NCBI GenBank assembly: GCA_029834535.1
Contig: JAQMWT010000315.1
Span: 240,676 to 304,675 of the forward strand
DNA length: 64,000 nucleotides
Direction: 5' to 3'
Source of the DNA: Chrysophaeum taylorii
Lineage: Eukaryota; Sar; Pelagophyceae; Pelagomonadales; Pelagomonadaceae
This document shows positions 3,561-60,231 of this stretch, in pieces (position 1 is the first letter of the stretch; each line of letters opens with the position of its first letter). The notes beneath the pieces were generated by a model that was not told the DNA's origin, ran no database searches, and was given only the letters and a program-made list of their open reading frames with translations. A program made the translations under genes and the position numbers.

Positions 3561-3629
3561 GGGGATTTATGTGGGGTATTTATTTTTCAGGTGCTGATTT
3601 TGCCCAACTTAGCATTTAAAAAAAAATAC

Positions 3630-3816
3630 GAAGTGGGGAAAGAACCGTTCTGTACAGCGGTACCAAAAAAAATTTTGTATTTTACTTTAGTAGTTTTTTT
3701 ACATACTTTTGGAGTTATTTTTTGACTTTAGTAGTTAGGATTTTACATACTATACAGCGGTACCAAAAATAATTTTTGGTGCCGCTGTACAGAACTGTTC
3801 TTTCTTTCCCCACTTT
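3630..3816. mobile_element. Small element with ~45-bp terminal inverted repeats (MITE-like)
   Basis: The left end (3631 onward: aagtggggaaagaaccgttc, then tgtacagcgg) and the right end (3773-3816) are near-perfect inverted copies of about 45 bp. The AT-rich interior has an internal direct repeat around the word ctttagtagtt. There is no coding capacity. It lies about 110 bp upstream of the TATA-like tract of the megasynthase gene. Sequence just outside the right arm (3813-3860) is related, inverted, to 1870-1925. Confidence 0.55.
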
Positions 3817-3930
3817 GGTTTTTTTCCCACTTTTGCTCTGTACAGCAGAACGGGCCGTATGCTTCACGAATTTTTACAATATTGTATTATAGGAGAAGAA
3901 AGAACGGGCGTTCTCCTCACAGTTCGCTGT

Positions 3931-3968: not shown

Positions 3969-6900
3969 ATGCGTACCGAAGGATTCGATGGTCTCGAATT
4001 GTCTAGAGAGCGACCAGGCATAGAAGGTGACGAAACTGGTATGACGTCGAGCAAGGCGCGATGGTCCCGCCGTCCCTGGAGCGAGGAAGTGACCTGGCAG
4101 GCGCAGGCACGCGAAACGGCCGCGGCGCTCAACGAGGAAATTTTCCTGACGTGGCTCGACAAAGATGGCGCAGAAACTGCCAACCTGTCGTATAAAATGG
4201 TCTGGAACCGCTCGGCGTTCGTGGCGAACTGGATTCTCGGGGACGTCGGTCTCGCGCCGGGTGATCGCGCCGTACTCGTGTACGCTCCGGGGCCGGAGTT
4301 CTTCGTCGCCTTTGTCGCGTGTCTTCGCGCTGGCGTCTTGGCCGTGCCAAATTACCCTCCCGACCCCTCCGGCCTTGGACGTGGCCTCAGGAAGCTGGAT
4401 CTCGTACGCACCACCTGCGGCGCCGAGGTGGGCCTCACCGACAGCATCGTGCGCAATTTGCGCATGGCAACGAGCATATGGCACGCGTGGCCCGCGATAC
4501 GCTGGCACAACACGGACGGCCTGGGCGCCGACTCGCCTCTACTTTTTCATCGGCTGATGAGCTCGGAGGAGCAGCAGCCAGATGACCCGATGCTACGAGT
4601 CTCGCGCAGCTCCAGCTCGAAGAAGAACGACGAGGGAGCCGCCGCGCGTTCGACGGTTTTTCACGACGAGCACGACGACGATGTAGCGCGTCGATCGCTC
4701 GCGCGCGTTCACGGTGGGGACGGGGACCAACAAGCGAACATCGAAGGCGGCGGCGGCGAACGCCTCGACCAAGCCACGGATGACTCGATCGCCTTTCTTC
4801 AATTTACGTCGGGCTCGACGGGGTGCGCTATCGAGAGAGAGTCGTCAAAAAATCGATTTGACATCCCCGCAGGGACCCCAAGGGCGTCATGATTTCGCAT
4901 CGCAACATCTGGCACAACGTCAACAATATCTACATCCCTGGCCAGCACAACTTTCTCGGAACCCGCATCGGCGAGGCGGCGGCGAACCGATTGCACGACT
5001 TGGCCGAACCGTCGGAGCGAGTTGTCGGGGTTAGCTGGCTACCCCAGTTTCACGATAGTGGTCTGATGCTCATGTTGCTCGGGCCATTTCTCGCCGGCTA
5101 GAACCAGTGTGATAAGACATACCCCGATAGAAACGACGATAAGCTGTCCGACTTGTCGTCGGTTGGAAGAGTGATTAAAATTGTGCGCAGGCTATCGCAT
5201 GGTCAACTTCTCGCCGGTCTCGTTCCTCGCCGACCCCTTGATGTGGCTGCGCGCCGTCTCCAAGTATCGCGCCATCTGGACGGCCTCGCCAGACTTTGGC
5301 TATCGGCTGTGCACGAAGCGCGCCGCCGATACCGATGTCAGCGACATCGACCTGAGCTGCCTGGTGTACTGCGCGGGCGGCGTCGGCCAGCGGTGCGTCC
5401 CGTCGCTCCTCCGCGAGTTCGCCGCCTACTTTGCAATCCACGCACGCCTCCCCGACGACGGCAGTCGCGGCATATTCGTGCCCAACTACGGCCTCGCCGA
5501 GCACGTCGTGGCGACTTGCGGCGAGAACGACGGCCTCGTCGCGTCCCGTCGGCGACCCGATCTCATCTCGTGCGGTTCAGACTTTATCGTCGACGTCCGT
5601 ATCGTCGACGCCGCAAACCGACGACGCATCGTCGCCGACAACACGCCCGGCGAGCTGTGGTTGAGCTCGGACTCGGTCGCCCAAGGATACTGGGGCAAGC
5701 CCGAGCTGAGTGACGAGACCTTTCGCGCGCGACTCGAGCCAGACGACGGCAAGGTATACCTGAGGACTGGCGACGAGGCCTTCGTGGAGCGGGGCCGCCT
5801 CTTCATCTGCGCTCGAATCAAAGACTTGATCATCGTTGGCGGCACAAATTACTACAGCGATGACGTCGAAGTGGCTGCGACCGAGGCCATCATCGACTCG
5901 GCGAGACCAGGATGCGTCGCCGCCTTTGCCGTCGTCGACGACGACGACGAACGCGAATTTCTGTGCGTCGTGCTCGAAGTTCGAGACAACGCCGAATCGG
6001 AATGCGAGGCTCTCGCGGCCGCGCTCGCAACGAGGGTTGGCGAGGCTGTCGGCCTGCGACCGCGCCGCGTGGTGTTCATCAAACAGAAAACTATTTTGAA
6101 GACGACGAGCGGGAAGCTGAGACGCCGGGCGATTCGAGATGCGCTACTAGCTGGCGAGCTCCGCGTTATCTTTGACTCGAATTCAACACTTGGCGGCGGC
6201 GGCGAACAAAAGATGATACCACTTTCGGAGGAGGCAGTTGTTGGGGGGCACGACAGCATTGTTGCTCGGAACTACGACGACTCGACCGAGGGCAGCTACG
6301 TCCAGCGGCTATGGCGGCGGCTCGTCGGCGGTGGCGGCGATAATAAGGAGTCTCCCTTGACGACATCGTCATCACCAGAGGTGAAGGATACCTTTGTCGA
6401 TCCGATGTTGAAGTGGTCCGAGCGCTTGCTCGCGGATGCTCGACGACGGACTTTCGAACTTTCTGATTTTCTGGGCGAGTGGGAGGTGCTCGACGACCAT
6501 TACGCGATTCGACGCTTTCATATCAAGACAGAAAATGCAATCGACGATCGCGATAACGTATACCGCCAGCATCACCTGGGATGTGGCCGCTACGCGCACG
6601 AGGCTGCCGTCGTCGCAAAAATCAAAATTACGTTGGATGACGTCGAGCTGAGGCCTCGCGAAGCGGAGGCGCGACTCCCCCACGACCTCTACGTCCTCGT
6701 GCTCCACGCTACCGGCCTCGTCAAGTTCGTCCCGCACTCTGCGAGCTCGCTGCGTCCGCTTGCTTTGCTCGAAAGCCGCGACAAACTCGACGCCGAGATG
6801 AACTTGAAGCACGCAGAGGATTACGGCTGCTTTCGGTTTGGCATCGTCGTCGGGGACGGTCGAGAACGCAGGTTTCTCCGCCTTAATCGCTGGGCCACCG

Positions 6901-8625
6901 ACAATCGCTACTTCTGGTCCGCTGTCAATATCACGCGCGACTTTCCCGACGGAGTCGACGAGCCGCGCGAGCTGATCGCGGCCGGGCTCGCCGCGCACCC
7001 CGGCGTTGACGGAACGAGGCCGTCTGGTGCTCTTCGCGACACGATCTTGGCATTAGAAGGCGAAAGCAACGATCGAGTCGGTGGTCGAACCACCGCGCTG
7101 CGATATCGGGCGGCGGCGGCGGCGGCGATCTCGCCGCGCGTCGATGATTTCCTGCTTGCTGGGCTATCCGGGAGCGAGTCGTCGTCGTTTTCTGGCGGCT
7201 TGGCACTCGTCGATCGCGTAGCGAGACAGATCATCGACCTCTTCCCTCCAAACACATCCCTCAAAGACCACCCCGAATTGCCCCGCGTCCTCGGGCAGCT
7301 TGCCGTTACAGACGAGCTGATGCGACGTCTTCACTACGACGAGTCTGTCACCGACGTCGCGACGTTCGTCGAGGCGATCAGGTCAAACGTCGTCAAGATG
7401 CCCGTGCTCATGCAGGTTGCGCAAGAACTCGAGAATCAACGACCCGGCCGCGGACTGCCAATTTCTGACGAGCGCGCCGCTGCAGACCTGCGAGGCGCCG
7501 TCATGTATTGTTTCGCGCTCCACGTGATCGGCATCTCAATGTTACGCGTGTCTTCGCCAACAACCGCCGATTCGGACTTTTTGCTCGATTTTTTGAAGAC
7601 GCAACAAGCCGCCATAAATCAAGCGAAGTACGCCGTCGAAACCAGTTCACCCTTCGAGTATGAATATTTCGTGTGAGTGATTCGAAGAACATCGACGATG
7701 TAGGCTCATGAAACGCGAGGCTGTGCAATCATCCGCGCGAAGCATCGCGGAGACGAGACGCGACCCGAGTCAGCTCGCTATTGCCCGAGCAGCCGGCGGG
7801 CCTCTCGCGGAGAATATCTTGATGGCTGCCATCGAGGACGTCACAAAAAACTTTGACCGCAACGCTCGCACTATGGCAGAGTCCGCGCAACATTCACATT
7901 CCACCTTCCATGCTCGTTGTTCTCGTGAAAATCAACGCTGTTTTTAAACGAGGTGGATACGCGTTTTTTTATAGCGGACTAACCACCGTCTCTCAGGTGC
8001 TGGCTTCGAACTCGCCTACTGGAGCTGTGTGCTTCACCAACCAACCGCACGCGTTAAAGTTTCCTCGAGCGGGCTCTACTCGGGCGTCACGGATTTGGTA
8101 GGCTTTGACGTGTGCCCGGCAATGATGTCAGAGTGGGTCCAAGTGTATCTCGTGTGGAATTTGTCGTTCGGGTTCACGGAGCCGCGCCCATTTTTGCCTC
8201 ATGTCGCGAAGCTTTTGGTGCCGTGTTTACTATCTTTGACCAACGAAGACCCGACCTTTTTTTTGTGGATGCGCATTATGACGCTCAACGCGCACGTCAC
8301 TTCGTTGGTTTGTCACCCCGAGCTCCGTTGGATTTCTTCGGCGACCTATGACTGGCGATCGACAGACACAAGTACTGCCTTGGGCGAACTGAGCGAACGT
8401 CTCGCTTTGCAACTGTCAAATTCTATTTCGGCAAAACTTTCAGATAAGATATCGTCTCGGCGCGACGAAGAACGAGGCGACCCGCAGCTTGCGACGTGGT
8501 TCTCCAAGGCGCGGCATCAGACACTCGAGAGATACCGGCGCAGGACCGATCGAGATGCGCTGCTGGCCGTCAAACTCCAATCCGCCTTTGGTTTTAATGA
8601 TCCGACGACGACGACGACGACTCTT

Positions 8626-8658
<33 letters not shown>

Positions 8659-11600
8659 GAACGACGACGCCACGAGCTCCTCACACTTCCCGAAGCGAAA
8701 GATCTCGTTGTGTGCACGTTGCGCTCCGTGATGGAATCGACGGATGAAAAAAACTTCTCGGTCACGACAAACTTTTTTGACGCGGGGGTCGACTCGCTCG
8801 TGATGTGCAATCTCGCGCTGGCTCTCGGCGACAAACTCGGCGGCGTAAGGATTCCGCTAAGTGCCGCGTTTGAGAATCCAACGATCGAGGCGTTTGCAGA
8901 GTTCCTGGTGAAACACGTCGCGTCGTCAAGCGGTACGAGCGAGCAAAGCGCGGTCCGCGTGGACCAACAACAGGGCGGCGCCGTCGTCGTCGATGGCGCT
9001 TCGAGAGCCCAGCCGAGAAAACTTAGGGAAAACGTACCTTTCTCGTGGAACCAGCTGCAGTTGCTGACAGAGTGTGCGTCCATAGAAAACGCCGGCCAAG
9101 GTGGCTCGGGTGTGTTGGCGTTTGCTGCGTGGGCTCGGGGGAGTTTTTCTGTTTTCGCGTTGCGAACGGCTTTAAACGCTCTCGTTCGGCGACACGCAAT
9201 TCTCCGCACGACGTATGGAATCGACAAGGACGACGGCCACTTCACGCAGAGCGAGCACGACCATATGGAAGTTGCCTTGCTTGATGCAGTTGCGAAAACC
9301 GAAGCGGAGGCGGTTCAGCGGGCAAAAGACGAAGCGCGCGCCCCGTTGGACGTCTTGGGAGGCGAACCTGTGCTTCGCTGCTTGCTCGTGCGCGTCGCGC
9401 CGGGATCAGAGGACGTCCTTCTCGCCATATTCGTGCACCACGTTGCCTGCGACGGGACGTCGACGCGCATCATGACCGGCGAGCTTCGCGAGCTTTACAT
9501 CGCCGCGACGCACCAACGAGACGCCTCCGCCGCGTCAATCGACGACGACGACGACGAGTGCTTGCCGAAGGTCGATCGGACGTACGGCGACTTTGCGCGC
9601 CAACAGCACGCAATGCTCGAAAATCATCATCTCGAGGAGCAGAAGCGATACTGGAGCGAGCATCTTTGCGATGGAAAACTCGAAGTTTTGAATCTTCCGG
9701 TCGATCATCCTCGGCCGACAAAGCTGCTGACGTACCGCAGCGATCACGTCGAGGTGCGCGTTCCAGCTGACGTCGTATCTGCGCTCACTCGGCTTGCAGC
9801 CGAATGGAACTGCACGCTCTTCCACGTTTTCCTCGCAACTTGGGCACTTCTTTTGGGAAGACACAGCGGATCCGAGGAAATCGTCGTGGGAACCCATTAC
9901 AAAGGGCGAGAAGACCGCGACAAAAATCTCGTCGGCTATTTAGTGAATATCTTACCACTGAAGATCCACGTCGGCCGAGGCACGTCTGCGCGGAGCCTCG
10001 TCCAGCACGTCCGAAGAGTCGCAATCGACTCTCTTTCGAATGCACAAGTTCCGTTCCAATACGTCGTCGAGAACCTTCTCCCGAGTCTCGTCCGCGATCC
10101 GTCTCGCAACAGCGTCTTTCAGACGCTCCTCGCCTGGGAGCCACAGGACGGGTGGCACGCCGCCGCCAACTCGACAACAACAACAACAACAGCAAATTGG
10201 ACCCCCGATTTGAAGATGGAGCCGGCTCTGCCTAAGCAGCACAATTCGATGGCAACGTGCGACGTCAACTTCACCGGCCATCCCACGAGCGACGGTCGCG
10301 TCGAGGGCACTATCGAATTTAACGCCGATCTCTTCGAGCGCGAGAGCATCGAGCAACTCGCCAGCCACTTCCTCGTGCTGGCCGCCGCCCTTCTCAACGA
10401 CCGCAATGCAGACATCTGGACTCTTTCGATGATTCCCGAAACGGAACGCAACCGCGTCCTACGCGACTTCAACGATAATCGCGTCGATTTTCAAGTTCAA
10501 GGCGTCTTCGTCCACGACCTCGTCTGGAATCAAGCTCGTCGACATCCTTCGGATGTTGCCGTCGAATGGCAAGGCTCGCGGATGTCGTATGCCGACTTTG
10601 AGGACGCGGCGTCGACGATCGCCGCCAGGCTGCGAGCTCTCGGCGTGAGATCGGACGTCGTGGTCGTGTTGCGCCTCGAAAAGTCGCTCGCAATGGCCAC
10701 GGCAATCCTGGCCGTGCTCTCGGCTGGGGGGGCCTACCTGCCGCTTGATGCGAAAGCCCCGATCGACCGCCAACGTCTCATGCTCGAGGACGCTCGCTGT
10801 TCTCACCTTATTACGCACGATCTTGACGACGACGACGACTCGTTGTCAGAATTATTCGTATCAAACATGATCCAACTGCGTCTTGGCATCGATGGTCGCA
10901 TTATCATATCCAATCCCCCCCTTGATGGTGATTCAGCCTCGACGACGCCCGCTCGGGAGGAGGAGGCGGTTCGCGATAACAAAGATCTCTGCTACATCAT
11001 TTACACATCTGGTTCCACCGGTCGACCGAAAGGAGTGTTGGTCGAACATCGCGGCGTCGTGAACTTGATGTGCGCACTTCGACCTTTCTTCGAAGCCTGT
11101 TTTCCCAAAGCTTTCCGTCGCTGCCGCGAAGACGGCGAACGTCTCGTCGTGCGCTACGCCGTAACCTCGCAGTACATCTTCGACTTGTTCCCTTTGAACC
11201 TGTTCAACTGCCTGACCATCCTTGGAGGCACGTGTGTGCTTCTGCCGAGTGGGCTCTCTCTCCCGGAGCTTGAAGAAGCCGACAACATCCACTGCGTCTG
11301 CGACGTCCCGAGTGTCGTCGCCTTAGCCGAATCTCTGCCATCCACTGTTCGCGCCATTCTTGTTGCGGGCGAAACGCTAACCCAACGAGTGATTTTGAAC
11401 TGTCTGCCTCGCAATCTTTTAAACGCGTTCGAGACGACAACCCAGAGTCCGAGCTTTCGTTTCTTCCTCGTTTTGTCGAAAAACCGCGCGCAAGAGACGC
11501 GAAGGTTGTTGTTGTTGTTGTTAAGTTTTTATTCTTTGCTTCTGCCTGCCGCCTCGTGAAGACATGATGTCCTAAGAGCCTGCTTTCACTCCGAAGGTAT

Positions 11601-14600
11601 GGGCCAACGGAATGCTCCATTCTTATGACGTCTAATATCGTGACCGACTCGGACGACGCAACGTTGGCTTCGATCGGTCGACAGTTCGCAAACGTCGCGT
11701 GCTACGTCGTCGCTCCAGATACGACGGAGCTCCAACCGATTGGCGTCTTCGGGGAGCTTTTGATAGGAGGAGTCCAGGTTGCACGCGGATACTTGAACCG
11801 TCCCGATCTGACAAATGCCAAGTTTGTGAAGAACCCCTGGCCAGAAACCGACCCCTCGGGCCGCGGCGTCGTATATCGCACCGGCGATCGCGTTCGGTGG
11901 CGCCCGAACGGCGAGCTCGAGTTTGCTGGCCGTATCGATAACCAAGTCAAGCTCCGAGGGCATCGAATCGAGCTCGGAGAGATAGAGCACGCGCTGCGCG
12001 CTCGCGATTGCGTGAACGAAGCTGTGTGTTTGCTTCGGAACGACAACAACGTCGAGCCGCAGTTGGTCGCTTACGTCAACCCGCCAGTCGCGGATATCGA
12101 AGCCTCGATACTACCGGGCTTGCGGCAAACGCTCCCCGCGTACATGGTGCCTTCGATTATTGTCGGAATCGAGGAATGGCCGCGCACGGGAACGAGCAAG
12201 ATCGATCGAAAGCGGCTGCCCGCGCCGCCGCCGCGCCGCGCGACGGGCGAACGTCGGCAGCCGAGCACGTTCGCGGAGAAGAGAGTCGCGAGAGTCGTTG
12301 CAGACGTGATCGGCTGTTCGCTTGATGACCTCGACGCTGAGACGTCCTTGTTCAAACAGGGAGCGAGCTCGCTGTCTGCAGTGCGGATCAGGGTACTGCT
12401 TCAAAAAGAGTTTTCGGGCATCGAGCTCGACCCGATGCTCCTCTTTGACAACGAAAGTATACGCGAGATGGCTGCGGTGCTTGAGGCGATGGGCGTGGCT
12501 TCCTCAGACGACGACGACGACGACGACGATAATAAGAGGTCGTCGCAAGAGCTGACCCTGGACATCCCCGAGACGGAGGAGGACGAGTCTGGCGGCGGAA
12601 ATGAAAAAGAGAGGGTCCTCCTCGTGTTGCGCTTCGCGTGCTGGGTTTTCGCTTACTCGTACGTCGCCACCGTCTTCGTCGTGCCCGCGTGGGTGGTCGC
12701 ATGGCGGCTGAACGCATCACAAGTCGAGTCGTGGCGCGTCGCGATTCTTGTCCACGCGCCTTTGGCGTGGGCATCGGCGTGCACTTTGCTGAGTCTCGCG
12801 GCCGCTGCGACGCGCCTGCTTCTTGCCCCGGGCGCGATCGTCCCGGTCGCATCGTGCAAGTTCATCGCGTGGTGGACAGTCGAGCGCATCGATCAAATGA
12901 ATCGATTTTTGTTTCTCGAAGAGCTTCGACGGACGCCGTTCCTGCCGATGTACTTTCGCTTGCTTGGAGCACGCGTCGGGATCGACGTGACTCTCGATAC
13001 CGTCAAGATTCACGAGCCGCGATTCGTTGCTATCGGCGATAATTGCTCTCTTGGACAGCAAGCGATCGTCTGCCCTCGCGAGTTCGACGGCGCGAGGCAC
13101 CGGATCATCCTTAAGCCCGTGGAGCTGGGGGCCTCGTGTCGAATCGAAGCCCGAGCTGTAATAGGGGCGGGAGCCAAGCTCGGAACGCGCGCGACCGTCG
13201 GAGCATTGGCGACTGTTGCGGAAGAAACGGTCGGCGGGCAAAACGCAGAGTTGCTCGTCGAACCGTCCACCACCCGGCCGCCGACCCTCTGTTGGTCCTT
13301 GTTCATTTCTCTCATCGCGCTCTATGCAACAATTGTTATCATCACCGCTTCCACGTATCCGGCCTTTCTCAGCTTGTCGCTTATCCTGAAGAAAGAGGGA
13401 CTCTATCCGCCGCCGTCGAGCCGCGGCGGCGAGAAAGTTGCCGATGCTCTGCATTCAAACCCGGAGGCGTTCGCGACATTCACTTCGACGTGCTCCCTCG
13501 CAGGCAGTGTCCTTTTAATACAAAAAGCCCGTTGATCTCTATCTGACGCAACGTCTGCGGCGGCAGGTACCTCGTCTCTCCAATTCTTCCGACTATGAGC
13601 ATGATTTTCAGCAACACTGACCCGAAACTGCAACGCAAGTTCTTCCTTCAACGGTACGGCAAAATCGCGCGGCTCATCCCGCTTGTTGCCGGCGTGCTCG
13701 TGCAGCACGAGCTCACGATGCTCGTCGTTGGTGTCGCGTCTTTCTGGATCGCCCACTGGATGAAGATTTTTTGCGCGAGGCAGTGGCGACGACGCGGGGA
13801 ATGCTGCGAGCTACCCACCGTGAACGCCGACGATCGAGGTGCCAACAACCTCGAAGAGGGCATTATTACCTTCGTCTACGACAAAATAGCCGACAGTATC
13901 TATCGCCGAGCGGTCTTTCAGTTCGGCGCGACGTGGCTCATACGACGATACTATACCTGCCTCGGCGCGAAAATTGGTGAGCGACCGCGCGTTCTCTTCT
14001 TCTCCTACAGCTCTCTGCAGGTGCGTGGACGGAAATCGACTTTCTCCTGGAACGCATCCCCAACCCGCGACAGCTTTCCATCGGGCAGAACGCTCACCTC
14101 GGGACTTTTTGCAGTGTCTTGCCAACTCGAATCTCGACGATCACGATCGGCGACAATAGCATTATCGGGTTTGGCGCTGTTGTCCTTGGAAAAACTACGG
14201 ACGGATCGTCGGTGAACATTCCTTCGACGATGCTCGTTGGCGGCAACACGTTGATTCGAGACGGCCACTCCAAGCCGAGAAAGTCCAGCATGACGATCGA
14301 CGCCGAGGCGATGATCGAAGATGCTCGAGAACTCGACGTAGTCTCGGCCGAAGGACGCACGATCAGGTCTCGTCATAACTCGATGACGTTGCCGTGGGAC
14401 GGCCACCAGAGCCGCGAGCTGATCGACTACGACCACGATCTAACGTTTTGCCACAAACTACTGTGCGTCGTCGCGCCGTTTGCCCTCTTACTCTGGGCTC
14501 GGCTGCTCTTGGCAGTCGCACTCTACGCCGCTGCGGCGACCGCAAACGCTACCTTCGAGTGGCTTGTCTACGACGTCCAAAACAATAACGACGACGCGAA

Positions 14601-15174
14601 CAGCAAACCTCGCTTCAGCAACTCGAAACCGTTTCTCGCAATTCGAGCTTTCGCGGCGCTCGTCTTCCTCTCGACATTTCTTCTTGGCTTCGCCTGCCTG
14701 GCCATCGCCAACAAGTGGTTCTGGTTTGCCTTGGATGCCGAGGGGCGCAGAACTAAGCGATGGGCGCAATTCGGGGTCGGTTATTGGATGCGGCAGTTTG
14801 GAGACGCGGGTCGAGCCGCGTTCACCGCCACCGGATTCTTTTTCGTCAGCTCGACCGCACCGTACGCGTGGTTTGTGCGCGCGCTTGGCGCCCGCGTCGA
14901 ACGGGGCGCCATCGTTGCCGCGCCCGTCTACTGGGACGTCGATAACCTGATTATCAAAGAGAACGCGGTGATCGACGAGGATGCCATCGTTTTCTGTCAT
15001 CAGTACGAGAGCGCGCACGTGACGGTCGGCAAAGTTGTGATCGGAGCGGGGGCGGTGCTGGAACCTGGCAGCATCACGACTGTTGGCTGCGAGCTCGCGC
15101 CTCGATCTAGGCTGCTGCCGAATAAGCTCGGAGTTCCAGTCGAAAAGGAAGCCATCTTTCGTTCGTCGCCGTGA
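3969..15174 (+). CDS. FAAL-ACP-C-A-T-terminal domain lipopeptide-type megasynthase (8 exons)
   Basis: Exons 3969-4822, 4873-5096, 5191-7672, 7704-7924, 7997-11426, 11597-13489, 13567-13976 and 14021-15174 join in frame to 3555 residues. Splicing restores motifs at each junction. Domains: fatty acyl-AMP ligase, ~30-685 (FTSGSTGDPKGVMISHRN, VSWLPQFHDSG, RTGDEAF, RIKDLIIVGG); an unassigned region, ~690-1485; carrier protein, ~1490-1570 (FFDAGVDSL, the Ser being the arm site); condensation, ~1609-1985 (HHVACDG); adenylation, ~2095-2610 (YTSGSTGRPKG, YGPTECS, YRTGD, GTSKIDRKRLP); second carrier, ~2625-2700 (FKQGASSL); then membrane segments alternating with hexapeptide-type repeats to the end. That tail resembles the terminal region of Pls/PosA-type peptide synthetases. 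No thioesterase or reductase is seen. Expected chemistry is activation of a fatty acid, transfer to the first carrier and condensation with one amino acid. The product is unknown. A bacterial origin of the module set is plausible, but the introns show it is an established nuclear gene. Confidence 0.85.
4823..4872 (+). other. Intron 1 of megasynthase (50 nt, GT-AG)
   Basis: It interrupts the FAAL ATP-binding loop. Removing it turns ...TSGSTG into the complete TSGSTGDPKGVMISH motif. The donor is gtgcgc and the acceptor cccgcag. Confidence 0.85.
5097..5190 (+). other. Intron 2 of megasynthase (94 nt, GC-AG)
   Basis: The unspliced frame ends at 5099-5101 (TAG). The only splice that restores the family sequence (GPFLAG joined to YRMVNFSPVSFL) uses donor gctaga and acceptor gcgcag. 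The five bases ggcta occur at both exon-intron boundaries, so the exact cut is ambiguous by sequence alone, but GC-AG is the reading that obeys splice rules. Confidence 0.7.
7673..7703 (+). other. Intron 3 of megasynthase (31 nt)
   Basis: Donor gtgagt and acceptor tgtag leave the frame open across the junction; unspliced sequence meets a stop at 7674-7676. At 31 nt it is extremely short. It falls in the unassigned region, so no family motif checks it. Confidence 0.55.
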
Positions 15175-16089
15175 CGACGTTCTAGCCTCGCGTAGGTAGT
15201 AGTACTGCTTTTTTGCGTGTCCTCTTCGTATTATTCTTTGATTTTGCTTCTTTGCTTGCTGCTCTAAGGATTGGCCTGGCCTACTACGCCCCAATGGCCT
15301 CTAGTTTCTTAGTCCCTTGCCGTCGGGACTTTTGCTCCTCGCCGCTCCCTTGGATCTTGCTTCTTCTCTTTTTTACTCTGCGCTCATCTGTACTGGGAGA
15401 TGCTTACCATTCTCTCTGCTTGGCGTCGTCGTCGTCGTCGTCGTCGTCGTTTCTGACGATTTGTAGGACTCCTGCGATGTCTCTCCGCGATTCGATGGCT
15501 CGAAACTTTTTTGAGAAGAAGGAAATTCCTCGCACAAAAAACACGACCACAGCGCGCTCTCGATGACGCCCGCCAAAAGCGTGCCCGAGACTTACGACGC
15601 TAAAAAAAACCTTATTGCCATTTTTATTAATGATGAATGAATACCCCGGGCGCACCGCGTGGTCGAGAAGGAGGGCGGTGCTACCCGAGGTGGTTACATC
15701 CCCGGCGTAGGTTCCTGTTTAGCCTCTCGAATGGGCGGTTGGCATCCAGTTCGGACAACAAAAGTCATATGGCCGGGGGAACAGAAAGTTGAGGACTGTG
15801 GTCTCAATAGAGAAGAAGATGGAAGAGTTGGTAGCGGAGGTGATGTAACAATTGTGCGTGGCGAGACAATGGGGATGAGATGATTCATTCAGGACTCGGC
15901 TCTCGCATCATCATGGCACTACTACATTCATCGCACAAAAAAGGCGTGACGTCGGGCCTGCGCCTTGTAGTGCCTCTGTGCGCACCTCATTCGATGATGA
16001 TGACGTGGAGATACCGCTCTGTAACTGGGCCGTCCTTATCGTGTGGATGGATGGTAATGTGCCACGCTCGACGCAACGAACCGGGATGG
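15175..16089. other. Intergenic, no gene seen
   Basis: This covers the 3' flank of the megasynthase and the left flank of the retroelement. It contains a GTC trinucleotide tract at 15424-15450 and only short frames without family features. The last few hundred bases may belong to the 5' part of the retroelement, but nothing recognisable shows. Confidence 0.5.
15424..15450 (+). repeat. (GTC)n microsatellite
   Basis: About nine GTC units lie in the 3' flank of the megasynthase gene. Confidence 0.85.
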
Positions 16090-18718
16090 TTCGTAGCTGC
16101 AGCAGCGACGAGATCATCTCTCTTCACACCCTTCCTTACAATTTTGGGCTTTTGCGGGGCCTCGACCATCCGCCGCCCCCAGCACGGTGCCACCACCCTT
16201 ATCATCAAGCTGGACAAACGCAACGCCTTCAACGAGCTCAAGCGCCGGGCCGTCGTGGACAAACTCGCAAACCACGCCAAAAGCTGCGTGCCTTTGGCCA
16301 CTTTATGTTCGAGCAATTACGGCCGGCATCTTGGGTGGCCCTCGATGGCCCCACCGGCCTCGATCGCGCCCCCCTCGACTCTCAAAAAGGCGGCCAGCAA
16401 GGCGACCCCACCTATCCACCGGCGTACTGTCTGGCAACACGCACGACGCCGCACAGGCCTTTGACACCCGCTTACGTTCGTGTGCCGGCTACGCCCGATT
16501 TGGCATGGACGACGGCGTCATCTCTGGTTCCCCTCCTCGTGAGGTTGTCGACGCCCTCCTGCAGTACGCCCGCGACATCCAAGCTAGCGGCGAGGAGCTC
16601 CGCCTCGACAAGTGCGTGGCGTTCTGTCCGGCACTTGGCACGGGTCTTCTCGATCACCCCGATGTTCAAGACCACGTCCAAGTTGCGTAGGACGGCACGC
16701 GCACTCTTGCTGGTATCCCCGTTGTCGCCGACGGCCTCGTAATCTACGGTGTGCCCATCGCCCCCGGACACGCCGGAGATGTCGATACAGTGCAACGCGA
16801 GGTTGACGCTCAGGTTAGCTACGTGAGCACCATTCGCACCAAGCTCCAGGACGTCTCCCTCCATTGCATGTACTCGTTGGGCTGCTACTGCATCACCCCG
16901 CGCATGGAATACCTCGCGCAACACTGCTACCCCACCAATGCCTTGAGCGCGCTCCGCCGCTCCGACGTTGCCGTCCTCAGCTTCGTCGCCACAGCACTTG
17001 GCGCTGAGCCGCGTCAGGTTTTTGACTCCACCGGCATCGTCCTCCAACGCCTCCGCCTTCCTGCTCGAAGTGGGGGTGGCGGCATTCGCTCCTGCGCCGA
17101 CCTCAGCCCCGCCGCCATTGTTGGAACGGCGGCCCAGTCCCTCCCACACCTCGTCGACCTTCGCGATTCTACGGGTGCCGTGGAGGTCCCTGGCTACCTC
17201 CCCCGCCTCGCCTCGGTCCTGGGCGCCACTTCTTTTCGCGCAGGTAACGACGAGTTTGCACCGTTGGCACCACCTCCTCGCATCCTCCGCTTGCCGCCTG
17301 GGGCGAGCGCTCGAGACTGCGTGGGACGGACTTCGCGCTGATCTCCGCACCACTCTGGCTTTTCCCCACGGCGGCGCTGGTCCCTGCGACCCCGCCAACG
17401 TTCATCTCGTCGACGGCCCTCTCGCCCACGAATTCGTCTTTATGGGCGTCCTCGTCGACCCCACCGTCTCGACACCCCCCGTGCTCATACCCCAGCTCCA
17501 GCGTGCTCTAACCTCCCAGCGCGAGACAGCTCGGGCCACTGCACTCCAGCGACTTGCGCCCACCGTTCCCATCACCGACGCTCTTCGAATAGCGGCGTCC
17601 TCGTGGGACCGCCTCTCGACCACGTTCATCAGCTCGTGGCCCGGCTCCTCCCTTCAAATCCCCAACCGCTGCTGGGCCGAGATGTGTGCCCAGTACTTTG
17701 GCTACCCCTCTCCAGCTTGTTCGGGCCTCGTGGGCACTCGCATTCTGGGCATTGACGTCGTTCTCGACGCTCACGGCAAGGTGCTTCTCACGCAGGCCAA
17801 CCTTGTCAACCGCAGAGGAGCGCGGACGGACCACCTGGCACGACAGCCTGCTCGAGTGCGTCCTCTGCATCGTCAAAGAGGCCGGCATCCCCGCCCTGTC
17901 CGAGGTATTCGGCATCTTTGATAACGTCGTCGCCCCTGCCGTTCGCACGCGCCTCTACGGCCGGTATCGAGGCAATCTCGCCCGACGCCACGTCGTCCCA
18001 GACATCCTCACCCTGCTCGACAACCGGCCGGGGGCAATTCCACGACCTCAAAACCCTCGCTTGGGGTTCGTTATACACCGCCCTCCATCCCAGCCGTCGC
18101 CTGTCGATCGGCGCGCAGCGCGAGTCCACCCCGAATACCTCGCTCACGCCCGCGGCATCGACGCCATCATCCCCCAGCCGGGTACAGCACCACCGCCTGG
18201 CTTCTTGGGCCCTGTCGAACAGCGGCTACGTAGCTACGGCACCGTCGCCGGCCTCGTCTTTGGTGCCTTCGGTGAGCCCAGCGCGGCGTGCTACGCCCTC
18301 GCCAAAACATGCGCAGAGCGCATCGCTGCGCGAACCTGGGTGGAAAGCGCCAACTTCACAGAGGCAAAGGTGGCCCAAACTCGCCGCATCCACCGTGAGT
18401 GGAGGATCGCCAACACATCGGGCCGGGCGCGCCGTGCCCTCACCGCCCTCGCCCGTGCCGCCGCCTCGGGGAGCCCCACCCAGGCCGCCCGATCCCAGCA
18501 GGACGTCACCCTTCGTCGCACATACGTCCGGCGGCAGCATGCGTACGACCTACCAAGGCGGGGCCCTTGGTCCTCTCTTCGCCTGCCCCACGACTCGGCG
18601 ATGACCTCGACTAGGTCCCACGCACTTATCTCCGCCCGTCAGGCACATCCCTCATACCCCACAAACCCACCCACATCCTTCACGCACCACCCCCCCCCTC
18701 TTAGCAGTCGACCTTTAA

Positions 18719-56490: not shown

Positions 56491-57393
56491 TTAACCATCT
56501 TGTGGAACTATGGGTTGTTGTAAGCCGAGTAACGTGCGAAATCTGCTGAAGAGTGGAGCTCCAAAGGGTTTGGTAAATCCATCGGCGATATTATGGGTAC
56601 CGGAAACATGATGTAGGCGTATTCGTTTTAACTGTACGAAGTCGCGTATACGGGACCAGCGTGTGCTGATAGCTTTAGCCTTAGTCGCGCTGTCGCGGTT
56701 ATTTGATAGATGAATAGCAGAGGCCGAATCTCCAAGTATAGGACTGTTACGTATGAACGACATGTCCGATGGGAAGGGATTGTCGTGAGCATCATAATCT
56801 AGTAGCAGGTCTTTCCCTGAAGGTTGGCGGAGATAGAAGTGAGGATTTATAACGAATGCCATTTCTGTTAACAATTTGCGCAACCAGACCACATCATCGG
56901 CGCACATATTAAGGGCGATAAGTTCACTCTCATGCGTAGAAGTAGCTGTAATAGGCTGCAACTTAGACTTCCAAGTGATGAGAGAACCAAACAAAAAAAT
57001 AGCGTAACCGGTTGTAGATTTGCGGTCGTGTTCATAAGAGGGTGCATTATCGGCATCGACGAACGCGACCAGTGGATCAAAATTACCTGAATTAACTTGT
57101 TCTTTAGTGTAATCCAGCATGGTGGCCATGTCAGTGCGATTACCGATAAGAAGTCGAAGATGGTCCATTAGAGCGGAAGAACCAGAGTAGTACCAGGGGC
57201 GAAGATTACGATTTTCGGGCTTGCGCAAATAGCGGAGCGTCCCTGTTAGTACTTGAACATGTAGAAATGCTGGATTATGCATTCCTCGAGAGCAACGACT
57301 AAGACTTTGTGATAAATCGGGGCGACAGGCCAATTGGACAAACGTGAGCTTGCCGAGTAGAGAAGGTATGAAGGATGAACTTGTCCATATCAT
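56491..57393 (-). pseudogene. Copia RNase H region
   Basis: Contains LVAFVDADNA, DRKSTTGYAIFLFGSLITWK, ATSTHESELIALNMCADD and HHVSGTHNIADGFTKPFG, the Asp/Glu blocks and end motif of Copia RNase H. It lies one base out of frame with the reverse transcriptase ORF, overlapping it at 57299-57393. It would normally be the end of a single pol polyprotein. Confidence 0.85.
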
Positions 57394-58759
57394 AAGGTGG
57401 CTCTCCAGTTTTATACGTGGTTGATGGTGACATCGGTGTGGAAGTGGGACGTAACTGCATTAAAATGGGGTACTCTTCGAACAATGCATCAAGTTTAGCC
57501 TGACAGTCCAGTGATATAGAACCATCAGTTGTACGCGTTATGCGCATGCCTAGGAGAGTATGGACTTCCTCGAAGGTGTCGACTGAGTATTCCTTTTTCA
57601 GGGCTTGCTGGAACTCACGACGTAGAGTTTCCGAAGTGCAAGTAATGACGACGTCGTCTACTGAGAGCGTGCAAACTAGAAATGTAGCGTCAGCTTGGAC
57701 TTTAGCGTAAATGCATGTGTCTGTTCGAAATCGTGTATAGCCTAATGAATCAGAGAAGCCGTTTATGGTTTGATTCCAAAGAGCAGGGCTCTGACGTAAT
57801 CCATAGAGAGATTTAAGTAGCTTTGGGAGACGACGGCCTTGGTATTTAGTATCTTCGGGATCGAGAAGGTAAATGCCTTGTGGCAGTTTGACATAGACAT
57901 GGGAATCGATGGGAGCTTGAACAAAAGCGTTAGGGACGTCGACATGGTAGACGGGAAGTCGCAGATGAGCTGCTAGCGCCAGAACACAACGGATGCCGGT
58001 AAGCTGTGCCATAGGGCTGAATGTGTTGAAAAAATCGGTGCCCAGAGAGGCTAAGAATCCTCGTAGGACCAGGCGTGCTTTATGTTTAATGTACTGACCA
58101 GCAGCGTTGGTTTTTATACGTAGGACGAGACGGGTGTCAATAGGCTTTGAGTTGACCATTGGCAGCGCTAGTTTAAAGCAGCCAAACTTAACAATGTCAA
58201 AAATCTCTTTGGAGATGGCAGCAACATAAGCTTTGCGATCAGCGTCTGAGAGACCTTTGAGGCAGTTCAACTCATATTCATCAATTTTGATATCTTTGGC
58301 TTGAATCTTGTATTCGTCCGAACCAACCGTGCTGGGGTCATGAGTCGTCGTCAGATGAGTAATTGCGTAAGAAGCGACATTATCGTGCAGATGAGCGTGA
58401 TCGGGATCTTCGATGAGTTGAACGACTAGTAGAGGAGCATCACCAAGATGGGCTTCAATGTAATGCGATTGCACGGTGATGTAGTCTTCGATGGCGGAGA
58501 GATGAGGCTCGGAAGCACCATAAGAAGCGTCATTATGATCCAAAATGGAGTGGGGCGCGAACAAAGCATAAACATATTGAGCGGGTGGAACTTGAAAGGC
58601 GTGAGCATGTTCAGAAATTAAATGAACGAGAGCTTGAGGAAGGTGAACGTCTGCAAGGTTGACGTCGTCGCAGAAGTGAACATGGGGAGCATCAGGCGAT
58701 GGGTGGCTATGGCTCCTATGACACATAACTGAAGAGGACTGTGAAATCGCTTGGTGCAC
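57299..58759 (-). pseudogene. Copia reverse transcriptase (RVT_2)
   Basis: Motifs in order: RLVLRIKTNAAGQYIKHKAR, HVDVPNAFVQAPI (first catalytic Asp), LYGLRQSPALWNQTINGF and VCTLSVDDVVITC (VDD box). Catalytic residues are intact. The frame then shifts by one base before RNase H near 57.35 kb, and differs from the integrase frame upstream. Confidence 0.88.
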
Positions 58760-58887
58760 ATGGTGATGAAGTGATGGTGTAAATTCCCCCTCTGGAGGTT
58801 TAGCCGTCCAGTGGGTGCCATGAGCAAGATGAAGGGAGTGGAGGGTGGGGTCGCAGAATGTTATGTACTGCTTGGAGAGGTCATACT

Positions 58888-60231
58888 TTATGTCGGCAAG
58901 CGTACCACCGGCTGGTTTATAAGCGGCAACAGTAGGCGAGGCAATTCGAGTGAGAACATCCTTGAGATTGGTTTTGCGACGAGGTTAAGGGTGATGAGGA
59001 CCACGGGTGAGACGGAGGACATCCTGGGAATAGAGAGACCGATAAGATGGTAAAAGTGGCAAAGTGTTGGAAGACACTTCAGATGTAGGTGTGGTGGCGG
59101 AAGTAGCGGGTGCAGAAGCGGGTGCAGAAGCAGCGGGAGCACATGCGGGAACGGGAGAGGGAGCATGGAGAGGAGAAGAAGGAGTCCCCCTCTCGTGGTC
59201 AGTGTCGGTAGGCATAGCATTCCCCCTCTGCGCCGCATCATTGGGGTGCTGTGAACAGAGAAGGGAATGTCGGGTGAAGGTGCGGGAGGTGGATGCTGTT
59301 CATAATCAGGAGGAGATTTAGAAATAAGATGAGGAAAAGTCAGTTTAGAGGAAACACGGACTTGACCGTTTTCAGGATTAAGGACAACATCGGCTAAATG
59401 ATTAACATGGGGTGTTATTAAAGGGTTGATAACGTTAGCACCACATAAGTAGATGTAGGGGCGACATCGGGGTTCATATTTATGAAATTCGTTAGGTTCC
59501 AAATGCAGATAACAAACAGAACCGAAAGGTTTGAGGTAGTCTTGTTGGGGAACATTACATTGGTCTAACAAAACTTGTTGGGGGCTTAGGACTTTATTGT
59601 AAATACGTTCAAGGGAAACGTTAGGGAGGAGATTATACGATTGGATGGCGAGTATAACAGCCCACGGGTAGTGTGGTGCCGGATCTGTTAGGGGGTGACC
59701 TTTATAGGATACATTAAGCATATGCCGGAGTCGTGTAGACGCGGCAGTGGCTATGTGACCAACAGCGGCTTCTACTTCGTGATTAAAGGCATGTAAGTAA
59801 GGGGGGAACGCGGACATGTTAATATCATGTTCCACACGGAAGGGGGTTGTAACATGCTGAGATAAATAGGGTTTAAAGGAATCACAATAGATTTGTTTTA
59901 GTTGTACATGAACATAAGTAGAACAAAAATTGCGGACAAACTCAAGGGCGTTACAAAATTCGCTGGAGTTAGTGCTACGACAAAAGTACACTAACAAAAA
60001 TTTAGAAATGAGACACTTAAAAACAATGATATGTCGAAAGGATCCCCATTCCGAGAGAACGGATACGTAACCACCGTCACATGCCCAGGTTTCACCAGGT
60101 TGAAAATTTTGTTCGAATGATGGTTGCTTGGTAAGGTGATGTGGATGAGGAAAACGTTTTTTTGCGAATCGTACAATCCACACAGAACTTACGGTAGGGT
60201 ACGTCAGATTGGTGGTGTCCAGGACTGGCAA
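58888..60231 (-). pseudogene. Copia integrase
   Basis: The core D-D-E is visible: ETWACDGGYVSV (D), QIYCDSFKPYLSQH (D), FNHEVEAAVGHIATAAST (E). KPFGSVCYLHLEPNEFHKYE is the usual GKR-like end region of Copia integrases. The last ~100 residues are a degenerate Leu/Pro stretch. Its true start lies upstream in the 60092-61996 frame, separated by a one-base shift in a T7 run (A7 in element sense) near 60155. Confidence 0.85.

Follow-up and report, generated by a model that had tools for sequence, protein, structure and literature searches.

What does an alga make with a protein that begins like a fatty acyl-AMP ligase (FAAL), activates one amino acid and ends in a membrane region resembling that of the Pls/PosA homopolymer synthetases? 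This question is raised by a gene in a 64,000-nucleotide stretch of DNA from the marine pelagophyte Chrysophaeum taylorii, referred to here as the window (positions 240676-304675 of contig JAQMWT010000315.1, or C315, in a 70.8-Mb assembly of 697 contigs). We propose, with a probability of roughly 0.6, that the gene encodes a single-module lipo-amino-acid synthetase, which would be anchored in the membrane by its terminal domain (TD) and would transfer a single N-acyl-aminoacyl group to an acceptor. The protein has the domain order FAAL, a region designated MID, acyl carrier protein (ACP), condensation (C), adenylation (A), peptidyl carrier (T) and TD. The features are listed below in window positions; the domain boundaries were set by us and are approximate.

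4041-15174, + strand: whole gene, eight exons, 3512 amino acids plus stop, with an in-frame collinear duplicate on contig C52
4041-4822, 4873-5096, 5191-7672, 7704-7867, 7997-11426, 11597-13489, 13567-13976 and 14021-15174, + strand: the eight exons
5097-5190, + strand: intron 2, GC-AG, missing from several paralogs
4041-6182, + strand: FAAL (about residues 1-666), two introns; Pfam AMP-binding, FAAL-named models and PDB matches
6396-8634, + strand: MID (about residues 738-1430, some 700 amino acids) between FAAL and ACP, two introns; of a kind without a known domain
8662-8934, + strand: ACP (about residues 1440-1530), phosphopantetheine serine in DAGVDSL; Pfam PP-binding, 1e-10
9031-10464, + strand: C domain (about residues 1563-2040), HHVACDG at residue 1698; Pfam Condensation, 3.6e-60, and PDB relatives
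10510-12230, + strand: A domain (about residues 2056-2572), with the intron 11427-11596 inside
12252-12494, + strand: T domain (about residues 2580-2660), serine in QGASSLS; Pfam PP-binding, 1.2e-13
12603-15171, + strand: TD (about residues 2697-3512), six hydrophobic stretches in three pairs with hexapeptide, left-handed beta-helix (LbH) segments; TIGR02353

Joining the eight exons gave an uninterrupted frame of 3512 amino acids starting at 4041. All introns were GT-AG or GC-AG, with GC donors in two of the seven (intron 2, and intron 4 at 7868-7996). Intron 3 was 31 bp long, and the end of exon 4 (7867) was placed using P0121, an intron-free metagenome relative. The C52 duplicate lies on another contig and is collinear with the gene across its whole stretch. 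Its coding sequence, projected from the alignment, had 3521 codons with the sole stop at the end, and all eight exons were in frame, differing in length by 3, 0, 12, 0, 18, 3, -9 and 0 bases. GT or GC donors stood at the same seven places (the sixth as GT only). The ratio of nonsynonymous to synonymous divergence (dN/dS) between the two copies was 0.38 over 3464 codons, showing that they are under purifying selection. With collinear copies, near-equal exon lengths and a dN/dS of 0.38, the arrangement is not due to chance. At the level of sequence, these results confirmed 4041-15174 (+) as one spliced nuclear gene. The seven introns of the original prediction, which had been made from the letters alone, were thereby upheld, whereas its start at 3969 lay 24 codons too early and its length of 3555 residues was too long. 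The start at 3969 was rejected, since C52 lacks an ATG there and, by eye, has an in-frame TAG five codons further along. The C. taylorii protein P0122 has an annotated start that matches 4041 in the alignment (by eye), and 4041 is the more likely start. The C. taylorii genome annotation used RNA reads, as stated in the genome paper (PMC10366177).

A FAAL, a carrier, a C domain with HHVACDG, an A domain and a second carrier had all been predicted, and Pfam and motif matches found each of them in place and on the same strand. As an account of the whole order, the prediction was right for these named domains and missed MID. Pfam AMP-binding matched two FAAL exons (2.1e-16 and 3.2e-10), and the AMP-binding fold contains a TSGSTG-type motif. 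In exon 3, the fatty-acid-AMP ligase model PRK05850 led with 174 bits and further FAAL models scored 100-150; the CoA-ligase-named PRK07768 was close at 165.2 bits, and other CoA ligases scored at most 77.5. Exon 1 was mixed, with 32.5 bits for the CoA ligase PRK09274 against 31.5 and 30.6 for FAAL models. The best PDB matches were 7r7g, 7r7f and 7r7e, named 'Polyketide synthase', which we take to be FAALs, followed by the FadD23, FadD28 and FadD32 AMP ligases, among which stand three entries named 'Acyl-CoA synthase'. The first domain appears to resemble FAALs more than it does fatty acyl-CoA ligases. The nonribosomal peptide synthetase (NRPS) model PRK05691 matched FAAL, C, A and T of this protein, and Pfam detected neither a thioesterase nor a reductase in the six exon pieces scanned. 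Four genome matches to the ACPS/PPTase family PF01648 are a possible means of charging the carriers.

In the A domain, AMP-binding matches of 3.3e-45 and 1.4e-12 flank the splice. YGPTECS (residue 2362) enters the domain only once the intron 11427-11596 is removed, as had been predicted, and the motifs YTSGSTG, YGPTECS and FDLF, aligned with FDGS of LgrA (Asp235), are intact. With the pocket positions placed by motif and numbered, Asp235 included, as we take the convention to be, the pocket code is D L L C L A A I L K, in which Asp235 is the sole acidic residue.

MID matched no Pfam family at E 0.001 (the best value among four members, 0.0079, was below its cut-off and was read as chance) and gave no significant NCBIfam match and no solved relative in PDB (best E 0.11 and 0.46). 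Searching 5.8 billion proteins twice found three relatives, namely P0122 from C. taylorii and the metagenome proteins P0121 and P0123; both searches scored only the roughly 8000 candidates sharing most words, at lengths of about 840-2670 and 375-1190 amino acids, and others may be missed. Pattern search plus tblastn detected no MID in contigs of bacteria, archaea or viruses. In an alignment of 13 sequences, 72 polar or aromatic positions were at least 92% conserved. Since no Pfam, NCBIfam or PDB match and few relatives were found, MID is likely a new family, so far represented by C. taylorii sequences and two proteins from metagenomes. An oxidoreductase occupies the MID position elsewhere, namely an acyl-CoA dehydrogenase in P0010 (CTAYLR_006909) and a FAD oxidoreductase in P0016 on contig C390 (PF01593/PF01266 listed, order by eye). 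Comparison by hhalign gave no support to MID itself being a decayed form of either the acyl-CoA dehydrogenase or the FAD oxidoreductase (probability 0.1% and 0.9%).

The C-terminal domain of Pls/PosA enzymes has been described as about 730 residues with six transmembrane helices, arranged as three pairs, plus three soluble segments (PMC10522769); this anatomy is also described in PMC7179176. The spliced TD matched TIGR02353 with 97.7 bits (E 5.6e-28), and the next family reached 7.3e-11. The original prediction would have been refuted by a terminal segment that proved to be an unrelated acetyltransferase; the domain search ranked TIGR02353 first. Six stretches with a mean Kyte-Doolittle hydropathy above 1.8 were found in TD and none in the other domains; at 1.6 there were six in TD and five elsewhere, and at 2.0 three were left. 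Pfam Hexapep matched TD at 5.7e-7 and again at 1.2e-4, the latter below its cut-off, so that Hexapep exceeds its cut-off only in the first soluble segment. Similarity among the three putative soluble (LbH) segments was weak (E 8.6e-4 for 1-2, 0.002 for 1-3 and 0.38 for 2-3).

Two of 72,556 records in a plasmid collection matched TD; one is annotated as Pls/PosA (L045, Streptomyces), and the other has no annotation under the match. L045 itself scored 750.7 bits against TIGR02353. Alignment of L045 to the algal TD by hhalign gave 95.4% over 105 columns, but paired query segment 1 with template segment 3, while the third TD segment aligned with the third of L045 at E 8e-4, with a His in common. 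Pattern search and tblastn found no TD in bacterial or archaeal contigs, a result limited by method, as the plasmid search gave two weak relatives. These results suggest that TD is a remote relative of the Pls/PosA domain. The predicted Pls/PosA-type end thus held for the membrane and hexapeptide anatomy and the TIGR02353 match, and it held as a remote relationship only, below the family cut-off.

TD also occurs outside amino-acid modules, and the gene has many relatives in the genome that make up a large family. A FAAL DNA search with 601 bases gave 36 matches, which reduced to 34 loci. Downstream of these, MID matched at 22, TIGR02353 at 27 and C at four (one of them the weak C466); 16 loci had MID and TD without a C match, 12 showed no MID and seven no TD. 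The counts were made exon by exon and are lower bounds. C390 and C370 are additional members whose FAAL was too diverged for this search. Strong C domains (199-214 bits) were found on five contigs, C390, C529 (two), C315, C52 and C370, and weak ones (43-51 bits) on two, C671 and C466. We assembled 17 genes from 20 stretches plus the window; among them, C315, C52, C390 and C370 each had one C-A-T module and C529 had two. The two-module NRPS C529 shares the domain order and carries TD, and C370 has the same order apart from its carriers, which were undetected, as was MID in C390. In 11 of 11 short paralogs, an ACP-like segment of the LGLSSQDA type continues into the first hydrophobic stretch of TD, the match in C45 consisting of two overlapping pieces in different frames. 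No ACP-like segment leading into TD was matched in C466. PP-binding fell below its cut-off of 20.8 bits in P0121 (0.0023, 18.6 bits) and P0122 (0.058, 14.1 bits), and the carrier reading is partly by eye. TD further ends two polyketide synthase (PKS) loci, L038 with 105.9 bits (profile positions 38-681 of 695) and L039 with 100.9 bits against TIGR02353.

We infer the catalytic steps, membrane insertion, acceptor, non-iterative release and role of MID from this arrangement. FAAL would adenylate a fatty (or other carboxylic) acid and load it onto the internal ACP. MID probably modifies the acyl chain or controls its passage, as drawn from the oxidoreductases in its position in two other C. taylorii synthetases. 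The A domain would load an amino acid on T, and C would join the acyl group to that amino acid. TD, as an LbH-type acyl-transfer domain on three membrane-helix pairs, would remove the N-acyl-aminoacyl thioester from T and transfer the group a single time to an acceptor at the membrane, either an amine or a hydroxyl. Because ends of the TD type also occur on lines without amino-acid activation (FAAL-MID loci and two PKSs), the evidence favours general transfer or release by TD as the better reading over polymerisation. A wider proposal, for which we see about even odds, is that the Pls-like TD is a common exit for acyl lines (FAAL-MID-ACP), lipo-aminoacyl lines (with one or two C-A-T modules) and polyketide lines. 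These would form a distinct membrane-bound class, in which MID, a new domain, would act on the ACP-bound acyl chain and amino-acid specificity would shift rapidly between gene copies.

Several observations weigh against the proposed synthetase. The TD score is far under the curated TIGR02353 cut-off (97.7 against 423.1 bits), generic hexapeptide acyltransferase models match parts of TD (E 7e-11 and weaker), and some paralog TIGR02353 matches are weak, down to about 24 bits. At a loose threshold, TIGR02353 matched in 13 of 14 well-known control genomes and exceeded the cut-off in one, so a low score indicates no more than 'hexapeptide'. With the NRPS-type TD as query, just three of the 11 short paralogs were matched, in the last part of the query. 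The TDs of NRPS members and short paralogs differ much, and function may not carry over between them. MID could be structural, and TD may hydrolyse or cyclise.

The last of these points leads to an alternative that we consider unlikely, in which TD, bound to the membrane, acts in release as a hydrolase or cyclase-like domain and a free N-acyl amino acid results. With no thioesterase or reductase in the scanned exon pieces, release must fall to TD, as this alternative requires; the Pls/PosA enzymes, which are the closest relatives described, make amide bonds, however, and LbH acyltransferases such as LpxA and LpxD transfer to an acceptor instead of hydrolysing. Distinctly less probable is that TD works as in Pls/PosA and repeatedly adds the amino acid of the A domain, giving a lipid-capped homo-oligomer. 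The TIGR02353 match, the resemblance of TD to the described C-terminal domain and the alignment of the third segments with their common His all agree with such a reaction, but a canonical C domain is present here, which the described A-T-terminal synthetases lack. Like ends also occur on the 16 MID loci without a C match, on two PKSs and on C529, and a pocket acidic only at D235 would be unlike the expected need of a diamino acid. The original prediction had offered either product; the N-acyl amino acid stands as the expected intermediate, and the homopolymer becomes the lesser option.

It is very improbable that at least two distinct genes have been joined here by mistake, or that the locus is decayed or wrongly assembled. 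Database models of relatives are partial or cut differently, P0016 being labelled 'partial' and P0001 lacking the FAAL part, as would be expected if the exons were separate. This separate-gene or pseudogene reading was rejected from the comparison with C52, which is collinear, in frame and constrained. The order shared with C529 and, apart from undetected carriers, with C370, the uninterrupted metagenome protein P0121 spanning MID, the ACP-like segment and TD, and a widest inter-exon gap of 170 bp also argue against it. The single-transfer synthetase encoded by one gene remains our preferred reading.

The duplicate also bears on amino-acid choice. Between C315 and C52, six of 10 A-domain pocket residues differed, compared with 58 of 513 in the whole A domain (hypergeometric P 2.4e-4). 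Synonymous divergence (dS) was raised in the A domain as well, at 0.269 against 0.178 and 0.173 on the flanking sides, and segmental exchange from another paralog is therefore as possible as selection. In a tree of the six C. taylorii A domains, LgrA and 40 others (taken from the best-scoring of 117 proteins that matched over sufficient length; those names that were listed were bacterial), the six formed one group with support of 100/100, and the two of C529 were sisters. This fits a single origin of these A domains with later module duplication. The A domain of C370 (L024, L025) was the most diverged among the six, and its pocket, D G H H E G T I T K, is acidic at the fifth place, unlike most other codes.

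Just upstream of the gene, an imperfect inverted repeat was observed at 3621-3825 (39-nt arms, 90% complementary, and 24-nt outer arms); a genome search gave no further copy. Some paralogs have intron 2, and C133a, C133b, C670a, C45 and C44a lack it. Near-copies of exon sequence border the intron, which looks like an intron gain with duplicated edges. The window holds 17 further long open reading frames (21 listed, four belonging to this gene). Ten of them were scanned; matches were CLP1/NOL9-like, VPS8, La-domain and copia-type reverse transcriptase, six had no match, and no second biosynthetic gene was found among the ten. The copia-type frame lies at 57302-58984 (-) (RVT_2, 7.3e-42), within a region where G+C is lower, at 42-47% from 54 kb on. 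A frame just downstream of the gene, at 15844-16464 (+), looks by eye like a reverse-transcriptase remnant.

The TD matches downstream of 27 of 34 FAAL loci and on two PKSs suggest that Pls-type ends work beyond homopolymer synthesis. The analysis also brings to light an unclassified protein region of about 700 residues, and the close duplicate with its altered pocket makes the two copies well suited to tests of the evolution of amino-acid choice. For a bloom-forming, mucilage-making alga with few assigned metabolite genes, the protein is a concrete enzyme candidate for lipid-amino-acid chemistry.

The genome paper counted nine NRPS genes by antiSMASH, among which this gene may be, and described type I PKSs with an N-terminal adenylation domain and LbH as an atypical domain (PMC10366177). 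In the parts examined, that paper neither describes this enzyme nor links LbH to Pls/PosA. FAALs are already known from algae and stramenopiles (PMC11837247), and searches of the open-licence PMC literature listed no description of this enzyme. The earlier statement that no such eukaryotic algal enzyme was known agrees with these searches as to the domain order, but the genome, the nine NRPSs, the LbH PKSs and algal FAALs had already been published.

Among known systems, the LbH PKSs share the genome and, in L038 and L039, a TIGR02353-type end, with polyketide modules in place of C-A-T. P0010 has the FAAL start and the same TD type (35% identity), but by eye it has four tandem FAAL-type units (4-5 model stretches) and an acyl-CoA dehydrogenase before its Pls-like end, and no Condensation match. 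The Pls/PosA synthetases of epsilon-poly-lysine and delta-poly-ornithine, and fungal Epls, likewise have A-T followed by a membrane TD with six transmembrane stretches in three pairs and LbH-like segments. Unlike them, the algal enzyme has FAAL, MID, ACP and a canonical C domain in front, its pocket is not diamino-acid-like, and it has paralogs without the C-A-T module. Bacterial FAAL-started NRPS/PKS lines such as PvdL, with the order FAAL-ACP-C-A-T, and the puwainaphycin lines share this order of lipo-initiation. The algal enzyme differs from these in the MID between FAAL and ACP, in a Pls-like TD that replaces the thioesterase, and in being encoded by a nuclear, spliced gene.

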